Shown in pieces: positions 10,221 through 13,891 of a stretch of 64,000 nt of DNA. The stretch comes from Thioclava marina (GTDB lineage Bacteria > Pseudomonadota > Alphaproteobacteria > Rhodobacterales > Rhodobacteraceae). How positions within the stretch are numbered: the first letter of the stretch is position 1; each line of letters opens with the position of its first letter. The stretch lies in NCBI RefSeq assembly GCF_002020135.1, contig NZ_MPZS01000001.1:310001-374000 (forward strand), read 5' to 3'. The notes beneath the pieces are model-generated. The model searched no databases. It saw only the letters and a program-made list of their open reading frames with translations, and had not been told where the DNA came from. Both the position numbers and the translations under genes were made by a program.

Positions 10221-11747
10221 TCAGAAGAACCCGAGCTTGTTCGGGTTGTAGCTCACCAGCATGTTCTTGGTCTGCTGGTAATGGTCGAGCATCATCTTGT
10301 GGGTCTCGCGACCGATGCCCGACTGCTTGTAGCCACCGAAGGCCGCGTGAGCCGGATAGGCGTGGTAGTTGTTCACCCAGACGCGGCCCGCTTCGATGCC
10401 GCGACCGAAGCGATAGGCGCGCGAACCGTCACGGGTCCAGACGCCGGCGCCGAGGCCGTACATCGTGTCGTTCGCGATCTCGAGCGCTTCGGCCTCGTCC
10501 TTGAAGGTCGTGACCGAGACGACCGGCCCGAAGATCTCTTCCTGGAAGACGCGCATCTTGTTGTGGCCCTTCAGGATCGTCGGCTGGATATAGTAGCCGT
10601 TCGCCAGATCGCCGTTGAAGCGTGCGGCGTTGCCGCCGGTGAGCACTTCGGCGCCCTCTTCGCGGCCGATGGTCAGGTAGGACATGATCTTGTCATGCTG
10701 TTCCTGGCTGGCCTGGGCCCCGACCATCGTCTCCATCAGGCGCGGGTCGCCTTGCTTGATGGCTTCGACGCGGGCGATGCAGCGCTCGATGAACTTCTCG
10801 TAGATGTCTTCCTGGATGAGCGCGCGGCTCGGGCAGGTGCAGACCTCGCCCTGGTTGAAGGCAAAGAGCACAAAGCCTTCGACCGCCTTGTCGAGGAACG
10901 CATCATCCTCGGCCATCACGTCGGAGAAGAAGATGTTGGGCGACTTGCCGCCCAGTTCGAGCGTGACCGGGATCAGGTTCTCGGTCGCGGCCTGCATGAT
11001 CTTGCGGCCCGTCGCGGTCGACCCGGTGAAGGCGATCTTGGCGATCCGCGAGGAGCGCGCCAGCGCCGCACCGACTTCCGCGCCGAAGCCGTTGACGATG
11101 TTGAGGGTGCCGGCGGGCAGCAGGTCGGCGATGACTTCCATCAGCACCATGATCGCCGCCGGGGTCTGCTCGGCCGGTTTCATCACGATGCAGTTGCCCG
11201 CGGCCAGCGCCGGGGCCAGCTTCCATGCCGCCATCAGGATCGAGAAGTTCCACGGGATGATCTGGCCGACGACGCCCAGCGGCTCGTGGAAGTGGTAGGC
11301 GACGGTGTCGTTGTCGATTTCCGACATCGTGCCTTCCTGGCTACGCAGGACGCCCGCGAAGTAACGGAAATGGTCAACCGCCAGCGGAATATCGGCGGCC
11401 GTGGTCTCACGGATCGGCTTGCCGTTGTCCCAGGTCTCGGCGGCCGCGATCAGGTCGAGGTTTTCCTCGATCCGGTCAGCGATCTTGAGCAGGATGTTCG
11501 AACGCTCGGCCGGCGAGGTCTTGCCCCAGGCATCCTTGGCGGCGTGCGCGGCGTCGAGCGCCAGCTCGATATCGGCTTCGGTCGACTGGGCGACTTCGCA
11601 CACCTTGCCGCCGGTGATCGGGGTGATGTTGTCGAAATACTTGCCTGCGACGGGGGCAACGAACTTGCCGCCGATGAAGTTGTCGTAACGGTCGCGGAAC
11701 GGCGAAACCGAAACGCCCTTGAATTCAGGTGCCATATCGTTGGCCAT
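10221..11747 (-). CDS. NAD-dependent aldehyde dehydrogenase (ExaC/AcoD type)
   Basis: 508 aa cytosolic enzyme oxidising short aldehydes such as acetaldehyde to acids. The subgroup motif [12 protein letters not shown] is present, with catalytic Cys303; [14 protein letters not shown] holds the general base and [11 protein letters not shown] the cofactor loop. ATG at 11747 follows GGGAGGAAAGACC. Members of this subgroup are typically controlled by AcoR-like activators, and such a gene, shortened, lies directly upstream. The promoter carries an inverted repeat CTGTCTC-N6-GAGACAG about 112 bases before the start. The physiological aldehyde is inferred, not shown. Confidence 0.93.
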
Positions 11748-11858
11748 GGTCTTTCCTCCCTGTTGTGATCGCAACCACCTCTGTTGCGCGTCATGAGAAG
11801 GAGCATGTCCGCTCCCGCGAATCGTGCATAGCCGTCCTGATCTGGTGGAATGACTCAT

Positions 11859-11878
11859 CTGTCTCAGCGACGAGACAG
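11859..11878. promoter_or_regulatory. Operator: inverted repeat CTGTCTC-N6-GAGACAG
   Basis: Perfect 7-bp half-sites around AGCGAC, 112-131 bases upstream of the aldehyde dehydrogenase start. The same half-sites with the same 6-base spacing occur at 13127-13146 before the adjacent regulator gene. This makes it a strong candidate binding site for that regulator. Confidence 0.8.
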
Positions 11879-11943
11879 GTGCAGGCGCAGAAAGAGGTGA
11901 TTTTTCGTGATAGAAAACGCTCAAAGCCAATAAAACAAGGCGA

Positions 11944-11959
11944 TACGACTTTAGTCGTA
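11944..11959. promoter_or_regulatory. Perfect dyad TACGACT-TT-AGTCGTA
   Basis: A 7-bp perfect inverted repeat with a 2-base spacer, about 200 bases upstream of the aldehyde dehydrogenase start and beyond the regulator gene's terminator. It is probably a second operator, bound by a different protein because its half-site is unrelated to CTGTCTC. The binding protein is unknown. Confidence 0.5.
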
Positions 11960-12015
11960 GAGGTCCGCACCAGCCCGTGAAGGGCCGATTCACCCTCGCA
12001 ATGCCGGCATGAAAA

Positions 12016-12035
12016 CGGGGGGCGAATGCCCCCCG
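12016..12035 (-). terminator. Terminator of the GAF-Fis regulator gene
   Basis: Hairpin CGGGGGGC-GAAT-GCCCCCCG, followed on the minus strand by TTTTCAT, 24 bases after the regulator stop. It separates the regulator transcript from the aldehyde dehydrogenase promoter region. Confidence 0.85.
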
Positions 12036-12058
12036 ATCAATCTCTTGCCGGTGACGGA

Positions 12059-13030
12059 TCAGACCCCGAGATTGAGCGCCTTGGCCTTGCGGTAGAACGT
12101 CGCCCGCCCGATCCCGAGATCGCGCGCAGCCGCCGAGACATTGCCGCCATTGCGCGCGAGCGCCCGGGCCATCTCGGAGCGCTGCGCCTCCTCCAGCCCG
12201 TTTCGGATCCCCTGTTCGAGCAGATCCGACGCGGGAAGCTGGCCGATCTGGCCCGCCTCGATCCCCAGATGACGCCGCGCCGCGCGGGTCGCCCCCACGA
12301 CGAGGTCGTCGCGATCGAGAGCAAGCAGCATCACCCCCTGCGCCCCGGCCTCACCCGATCCCGTCGACAGGATGCGCGCCCCATCGTAGGAGGCGCGAAA
12401 CAGATCGGCCTCGATCCGATGCGCCGCGTCCTGCACGGTCAGAGCCACGAGACGCGCATAGCCCTCTGTCATGTCCGACCGCGCGGAACTGACATCGATC
12501 ACGCCCGCCAGATCACCCTGAGCGCCGAAAATGGGCGAGCCCATGCAGGTCAGAACCGTGTTGCGGGTGCGGAAATGCTGGTCGCGCCAGACGGTCACGG
12601 GGCGCGCCTCGGCCAGACAGGTTCCGATCCCGTTCGTCCCTTCGGAGCCCTCGGACCAGTCCGAACCCGGCGCGAGGTTCGAGGAATGGAAATCGTTCAC
12701 ATCGGCCTCGCGCAGACGCTCGTCGAGGACCAGACCGCCCGCATCCGACAAGAGCACGGTGCACCCCGCATCCCCCGCCGCCCGCGCGAGCCGGTCGAGC
12801 ACCGGCGAGGCGATGCGCATCATCAGTTCGGCCTTCTCGCGCCGCTCGCGCATCTCTACCTCGGTCAGCCGGTCGTTGCGGCGGGTCGTCTCGGGGTCGA
12901 TCTGGTGATGCAGGAGCGAACGCCGCCAGCTCGCGGCAAAGCCTGCCCGACCGGCGGATTTGGGCGAGGAAACGACCTCGCGAACGATATCGGCATGATG
13001 GCGAGGAACGCCCGTATGCAGTGCCGGCAT
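12059..13030 (-). CDS. AcoR-like GAF-Fis regulator lacking the AAA+ domain
   Basis: 323 aa. ATG at 13030 follows GGGAGG. The N-terminal part matches AcoR-type activators: [10 protein letters not shown], then a GAF-like domain (about 75-200) with [11 protein letters not shown] and a DQHF-type segment. A short PAS-like linker ([17 protein letters not shown]) runs straight into a C-terminal Fis helix-turn-helix ([22 protein letters not shown]). The roughly 240-residue sigma-54 AAA+ ATPase of full-length AcoR (Walker A, GAFTGA) is absent with no frameshift, so this is a compact DNA-binding protein rather than a sigma-54 activator. It probably senses an aldehyde or alcohol and controls the downstream aldehyde dehydrogenase and itself through CTGTCTC-N6-GAGACAG. 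Confidence 0.88.
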
Positions 13031-13125
13031 GCGAAAGCCTCCCTCTCTTGCGCAGCCCCTGAGGCTGGAAAGGTTAGGCCGATTCGGACCTTTCACAACG
13101 AAAATTCGCCGTGAGGGCGGAAAAA

Positions 13126-13147
13126 ACTGTCTCGGGGTCGAGACAGT
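13126..13147. promoter_or_regulatory. Second copy of the CTGTCTC-N6-GAGACAG operator
   Basis: ACTGTCTC-GGGGTC-GAGACAGT, an 8-bp perfect inverted repeat between the rlmE stop and the regulator start, about 97 bases before the latter. Half-site and spacing equal those at 11859-11878, which suggests autoregulation. Confidence 0.8.
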
Positions 13148-13153
13148 CCGCGC

Positions 13154-13891
13154 TCAGTCCTCCTCGTGCCGGCGCCCCCGAAATCCTTGCGCAACCACGA
13201 ATTTTTCCGAGCTGTCCGAGCGCGAGGCGGGCGGTTTCACATTCGCGACCTTGGTGAAATTTTTCTTCAGGATGTTGAGCAGACCCTGCTCCGCCCCGCC
13301 CGCGAGCACCTTGGCAACGAAGGTACCGCCCTCTTCGAGCACGTCGAAGGCGAACTCGGCCGCCGCTTCGCACAGCGCGATGATGCGCAAATGGTCGGTG
13401 TTCTGGTGGCCAGAGCTGGCCGCGGCCATGTCCGACATCACCACATCGGCATTCCCGCCAAGCCAGGCCTTCACCTTGTCGTCGGCCCCTTCGGAAAGGA
13501 AATCGAGCTGATGAATCTCGGCGCCCGCGATCGGGTCGACCTCCTGCAGGTCGACGCCCAGAACGGTGCCGACCTTCTTGCCCGACTTTTCTCCCAGAGC
13601 GTTGACCCGCTTCACGGCGACCTGGCACCAGCCGCCGGGCGCGCAGCCCAGATCGACGACCCGCGCGCCGGGCACGAGGAAGCGATACTTGTCGTCAAGC
13701 TCGAGGATCTTGAAAGCCGCACGGCCCCGGTAGCCCTCTTTCTTTGCGCGCTGCACATAAGGATCGTTGAGCTGACGCTCGAGCCAGCGGGTCGAGCTCA
13801 GCTTGCGGCCCTTCGCGGTTTTCACGCGCACGCGCAGATCGCGCTGGCCGCGCCCGGAGGTGTTCTTGCCTGTCGGTGTCTTCGTCATCAT
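13154..13891 (-). CDS. rlmE: 23S rRNA 2'-O-methyltransferase (FtsJ/RrmJ family)
   Basis: 245 aa SAM-dependent methyltransferase for U2552 of 23S rRNA. The SAM-binding motif [14 protein letters not shown], the catalytic Asp in [12 protein letters not shown], the motif [11 protein letters not shown] and the terminal [21 protein letters not shown], with late Lys and Glu, fit the K-D-K-E family. The N-terminus carries about 35 extra basic residues ([20 protein letters not shown]), common in alphaproteobacterial members. The gene start overlaps the ppx stop by 4 bases. Confidence 0.95.

Follow-up and report, generated by a model that had tools for sequence, protein, structure and literature searches.

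Rhodobacter capsulatus NtrC, HupR and TyrR are related to sigma-54 activators but work with sigma-70, and have kept the AAA+ domain; a shift from sigma-54 to sigma-70 is usually argued from proteins of this sort, in which AAA+ is changed but retained. Escherichia coli DhaR, which controls dihydroxyacetone kinase, likewise retains its central region. A Fis-type helix-turn-helix (HTH) without AAA+ occurs in the response regulators RegA/PrrA/ActR, in the company of a receiver domain and a histidine kinase. DhaR is said not to be a sigma-54 activator, as GAFTGA is missing (PMC3162934), and a GAF-containing regulator of alcohol dehydrogenase genes, AdhR, is described from Clostridium beijerinckii (PMC7017808). 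Closest to the present case is Ralstonia solanacearum, where AcoR (Rsc3129) lies beside ExaC (Rsc3128) and is predicted to regulate exaC, and where rpoN1 is needed for growth on ethanol (PMC4676750). An AcoR-exaC pair whose regulator is AAA-less is not named in the literature titles and abstract openings found, a scope outside which most subscription papers lie.

Such a pair is present in the window, the whole stretch of 64,000 nucleotides of Thioclava marina DNA (class Alphaproteobacteria) analysed here. In this part of the contig an FtsJ-family methyltransferase gene, probably rlmE (13157-13891), the regulator gene (12062..13030, stop codon 12059-12061) and exaC (10224..11747, stop 10221-10223) all lie on the minus strand. 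The 508-aa exaC product is an acetaldehyde dehydrogenase that passes the equivalog cut-off of NF050026 (AcaldDHExaC, NCBIfam; 935.7 bits vs 900). The reading frame of the regulator opens at GTG 13096; the start was taken to be ATG 13030, and a GGGAGG-containing block 5′ of this ATG is conserved across 13 aligned genomes. The resulting protein of 323 aa, whose nearest named record is from Thioclava pacifica (95%), consists of a GAF domain (PF01590, E 7e-13), a linking segment and a C-terminal Fis-type HTH (HTH_8, PF02954, E 9e-10), with no Pfam AAA family at E 0.001. A pattern search for Walker A and GAFTGA was negative in all 192 regulator loci assembled below. These results bear out the preliminary description, according to which GAF and Fis had been kept and AAA+ was gone, and domains and trees support a kinship of the regulator with AcoR-type activators together with the absence of AAA+. 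Its best NCBIfam match is E. coli DhaR, at 68 bits far under the cut-off of 551. A structure predicted from an alignment of 9 rows was of low quality (mean pLDDT 51.6).

Two identical inverted repeats, CTGTCTC-N6-GAGACAG, are found at 11859..11878 before exaC and at 13127..13146 before the regulator gene. Both are exact, in full agreement with the positions first described, and so are the distances of 112 bp to the exaC ATG (11747) and 97 bp to the regulator ATG (13030). We refer to these predicted sites, to which no strand is assigned, as operators. The 3.65-Mb genome contains only these two exact copies. Allowing up to two mismatches gives 9 places, and the pattern in reversed order gives 7, so that mismatched genome copies are near chance level.

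Conservation was examined in a first set of 61 genomes. An AAA-less orthologue was found in 20 of them, comprising all 16 of the genus and G019, G027, G031 and G032, with identities of 44-96% (16 aligned rows), and the repeat with at most two mismatches is present at all 20 loci. The exact core TGTCTC-N6-GAGACA occurs in 19/61 genomes, one of which (G057) has no regulator match, and the reversed pattern in 1/61. Two exact copies are present in ten of the 16 genus genomes; in nine of these they precede the regulator and exaC, one each, while in G010 the second exact copy lies elsewhere, outside such a pair. The site also goes with exaC when the gene is separated from the regulator. It still precedes exaC where this gene is on a different contig (G002, G004, G008, G013 and G015) or about 5-10 kb away (G005, G006, G012 and G014); among these nine genomes, the exaC site of G004 has two mismatches. 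In G085 and G264 exaC, again some 5-10 kb distant, likewise carries the site, giving six such genomes in total. The exaC genes of G020 and G258, genomes where the AAA-less regulator was not found, have no site at up to three mismatches in the stretch read.

We then considered a wider sample, in which 5-11 candidates were scored per genome and regulator 'absence' means absence among these. Within family f1 (295 genomes) an AAA-less match was present among the scored candidates in 49. The exact TGTCTC-N6-GAGACA motif occurs in 37 of the 49 genomes with a detected regulator vs 13 of the 246 without one (p 1e-25), and the reversed pattern in 5/295 genomes. The 12 exceptions among the 49 comprise nine with a His-type regulator (see below) and at least one TGTCGC half-site, and three with one-mismatch sites. 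In the class, a search of 385 genomes with a threshold of E 1e-55 gave nine more AAA-less regulators from other families and one further match, G363, with a different C-terminus. A search of 398 genomes of the phylum gave seven matches outside the class, all full-length and all from family f194. Two families were added (f63, 35/199 genomes with the AAA-less regulator; f174, 73/199), and the final set holds 192 AAA-less regulator loci including the window's own, all from one class; two genomes give two loci each. Dropped before the counts were L204 (no HTH), L181 (different C-terminus), and G779 and G1098 (partial); L005-L012 also stand outside them, being mostly duplicate genomes, with L009 and L011 as extra ones.

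Some of these relatives have features of their own. L204 (G877) has a frame that ends without an HTH and an adjoining exaC without a 10/10 site. L181 (G363) has an AcoR-like N-terminal half followed, by eye, by an apparent AraC-type HTH that replaces the Fis type. L156 (G121), L277 (G1401) and L279 (G1237) are AAA-less relatives in which the helix is SRATFYRM or SRATFYRL and the stretch read contains no exaC; an exact operator lies directly after the regulator gene in G121, and none was found in G1401 and G1237.

An exaC gene could be examined in 172 of the 192 loci, the other 20 having none to examine. Sites were scored as TGTCnC-N6-GnGACA, with 10 scored positions, the sixth base and the spacer being unscored, in stretches of unequal length. 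The highest-scoring site in the regulator-exaC interval, or before a distant exaC, reaches 10/10 in 148 loci, 9 in 23 and 8 in one (G1396), counts that come from related sequences, so that percentages across loci are not independent. In 180-bp control windows taken from within the regulator gene, a score of 9 is reached in 1/172 loci and 10 in 0/172. Conservation of the repeat beside orthologues had been set beforehand as a refutation test, which was passed, as 171 of 172 exaC genes have a site at 9 or 10 of 10. The repeat might instead serve another DNA-binding protein, with the regulator merely its neighbour, as could be suggested by the exact motif in 13 of the 246 genomes where the regulator was not detected. 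Yet the motif tracks the regulator across genera with the p-value given above, accompanies exaC copies distant from it and, in counts, varies at one base together with the regulator's recognition helix; we regard this possibility as very improbable.

The promoter was located by its register to the operator, with offsets numbered from 1 at the base that follows the repeat. Among 171 distinct exaC upstream regions, an A and a T four positions apart are found at offset 53 in 54% and at offset 52 in 25%, compared with 1.8% at the median offset; TGAC is found at offset 30 in 27% and at offset 29 in 13%, with a median of 0. After leaving out G015, a mispicked site within the 171, 134 of 170 distinct regions have the A..T pair at 52/56 or 53/57. 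Thus, a sigma-70-type promoter lies at fixed spacing from the exaC site, with the -35 element at offsets 29-34 and the -10 element at 52-57. In the window, the inferred exaC -35 is TATGCA (11825..11830, minus strand), conserved in the genus set and a poor match to TTGACA, and the inferred -10 is CATGCT (11802..11807, minus strand), at offsets 52-57. TATGCA, 28 bp past the operator, was also tried as a -10 and rejected, since the wider set puts the -35 there and the -10 at 52-57. The repeat is centred near -73 from the inferred exaC start.

A search for -24/-12-like sites in about 140 bp round the operator, short of the final bases ahead of some exaC starts, gave matches of at least 9/12 in 2/172 loci vs 10/860 for shuffles, i.e., no excess, in line with the original observation that a sigma-54 promoter is not seen. 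This bears on the idea that the short protein acts on sigma-54 promoters with the ATPase supplied by a separate full-length activator. Full-length AcoR-like proteins do occur in several genomes with the AAA-less form (e.g., G000:C1:827277), but the surroundings of the operator have a sigma-70-type register in place of any -24/-12 excess, which makes such a partnership highly unlikely. Least plausible of all, to the point of being nearly negligible, is a role of the repeat as an RNA hairpin: its 7-base arms and 6-base loop could pair, but it lies upstream of the inferred exaC promoter and would therefore be absent from the exaC transcript.

We consider it probable that a ligand-sensing, AAA-less relative of AcoR activates exaC with sigma-70-type polymerase from TGTCTC-N6-GAGACA. 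A dimer would occupy the operator with one Fis-type HTH per half-site, and the GAF region would sense acetaldehyde or a related aldehyde or alcohol. Bound near -73, the regulator would aid the housekeeping sigma-70-type polymerase, most likely via an upstream contact; in Thioclava, the second same-register copy before the regulator gene would provide autoregulation. We infer binding, the dimer, activation as opposed to repression, and the inducer from the sequences. The protein could alternatively be a repressor that sits on the repeat without inducer and is released once aldehyde occupies GAF. Aldehyde-responsive repressors are common, and in Thioclava a site precedes the regulator's own gene, as repression would have it. 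The exaC site, though, is 28 bp upstream of the inferred -35/-10 elements, in fixed register and with no overlap, and an upstream, non-overlapping position is the usual place of an activator. Enhancer-binding proteins such as AcoR are, moreover, activators (PMC7017808, PMC4676750). Repression therefore appears unlikely, if less so than the other alternatives, and activation remains our preferred reading.

The site before the regulator gene is far less widespread than that before exaC. A 10/10 site is present there in 22/192 loci, half of them (11) from the genus and the other 11 from outside it, which qualifies the initial proposal of operators in front of both genes. In the window, the inferred regulator promoter has its -35 (TTGTGA, 13093..13098, minus strand) in the same register as exaC and its -10 (TAACCT, 13071..13076, minus strand) with the A..T pair in a register shared by 12 of 13 regulator promoters, a set that includes G008 with a 9/10 site. 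The promoter register of the regulator-side site is seen in 11/11 cases in the genus and 3/11 elsewhere; the sequences thus point to in-register autoregulation for the genus only. Within the spacer of the regulator promoter (13077-13092), the block CGAATCG is identical in all 13 aligned genomes, which is unusual between -35 and -10; perhaps it is bound by a second protein. Extra exact sites elsewhere (nine site-strand cases in L080, L161 and L163-L166) are outside the promoter register, and several are inside open frames. One of them (L080:2027-2046, G010) is located about 93 bp 5′ of an iron-containing alcohol dehydrogenase frame and another (L164:2980-2999, G085) adjoins a cytochrome c gene, inside other open frames; the register was seen at neither.

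The base left unscored within each half-site goes with residues 313 and 308 of the regulator, which belong to the recognition helix (GRATFYR, residues 308-314; codons 12089..12109, minus strand). By half-site, in 172 loci many of which are near relatives, the sixth base is T in 159/170 half-sites of regulators with Tyr at 313 (10 G, 1 C), G in 129/164 of those with His (34 T, 1 A) and T in 10/10 of those with Asn. By locus, Tyr-type regulators have 75 T/T, 8 G/T, 1 G/G and 1 C/T, His-type 49 G/G, 30 G/T, 2 T/T and 1 A/G, and Asn-type 5 T/T. Residue 308 contributes: T/T is found in 63/64 loci with the Gly-Tyr combination and in 11/20 with Ser-Tyr. A near-strict rule of T with Tyr and G with His held in one family (106 T and 2 C for Tyr, 16 G and 2 T for His) and was weakened by wider sampling; G856, with Tyr and a G on both sides, is a counterexample to its strict form. 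We also compared the base across independent changes of the residue. A tree of 172 rows has 6 residue changes and 5 independent pairs, where earlier trees had one pair on supported branches. Coding the site as 'any G' gave 2.5 pairs in the same direction, 0 opposite and 2.4 with no difference (median p 0.5), and coding as 'both G' gave 1.6, 0.2 and 3.2 (median p 1), neither being significant with five independent pairs. The apparent link between residue 313 and the operator base is thus strong by count and tentative across independent events. The readable binding code suggested in the preliminary description is, judged from these sequences, graded and not strict.

Full-length relatives give an indication of where the regulator came from. 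The seven f194 loci (L304-L310), close relatives of one another from the same phylum and another class, have a full-length AcoR gene divergent to exaC (69-71% identity). GSFTGA is present in 7/7 of the proteins, and a -24/-12-like site (9-10 of 12) lies 56-89 bp before the exaC ATG in 7/7 loci, with TGTC-N10-GACA further upstream in 5/7. Their best operator scores are 8, 9, 10, 10, 10, 10 and 10, vs 7-8 for the reversed pattern, and some have a weaker second copy. As AAA-less and full-length systems have a like operator together with exaC, operator and target may have stayed in place through the loss of AAA+ and a change of promoter class. A tree was built from 36 AAA-less and 23 full-length proteins with the AAA+ columns retained (blank in AAA-less proteins), and in it a branch supported at 100/98 sets all the AAA-less ones apart; a tree of 50 and 20 gave the same split (SH-aLRT 92). 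On midpoint rooting the AAA-less proteins adjoin full-length proteins of family f171, whose loci contain no exaC and no 10/10 site (6-9 kb read, six loci).

Full-length AcoR-like genes elsewhere were also inspected. In eight stretches round such genes a strict -24/-12 search gave no promoter, and a TGTC/GACA search gave one repeat, with a different spacing. Among 20 stretches round those of f1 (L112-L131), exact GAFTGA is present in L125 only and Walker A in most (L122 was extracted wrongly, at 29 aa); looser loop patterns, applied to ten of the 20, gave nothing GAFTGA-like except in L125. Some full-length AcoR-like proteins of f1 may be sigma-54 independent too.

Domains, trees, the exaC promoter register (134/170) and the seven full-length AcoR-exaC loci together favour the earlier suggestion that a sigma-70-type regulator was derived from sigma-54 activators. 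Loss of AAA+ is the simplest reading on a tree whose root is not fixed, and we infer the direction of change. In its complete form, the proposal is that in an alphaproteobacterial ancestor an exaC activator of the AcoR type lost the whole of AAA+, its target changed from -24/-12 to -35/-10 with the operator core kept, and ATP-driven looping gave way to a contact activator; a later change of Tyr313 to His would have shifted the operator of many lineages from TGTCTC to TGTCGC. The f171 neighbours, without exaC or 10/10 site in the stretches read, slightly lowered our confidence in this history, which we hold to be about as likely right as wrong.

With one enzyme gene and a like operator in both promoter settings, the change is testable part by part, and the loci already supply a series of natural variants in operator and recognition helix. 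The analysis also predicts a regulator of acetaldehyde oxidation for many Alphaproteobacteria. Compared with the full-length AcoR-exaC systems of Ralstonia and f194, the AAA-less ones have a common target, GAF and a Fis-type HTH, with the operator core present in 5/7 f194 loci; the f194 loci differ by an AAA+ domain that carries GSFTGA and by their -24/-12-like promoter. AdhR (PMC7017808) is unlike the Thioclava regulator in that AAA+ is present, it depends on sigma-54 and it has three upstream sites. NtrC, HupR and TyrR keep the AAA+ that the Thioclava regulator is without, and RegA/PrrA/ActR have a receiver domain and a histidine kinase where the Thioclava regulator has GAF.
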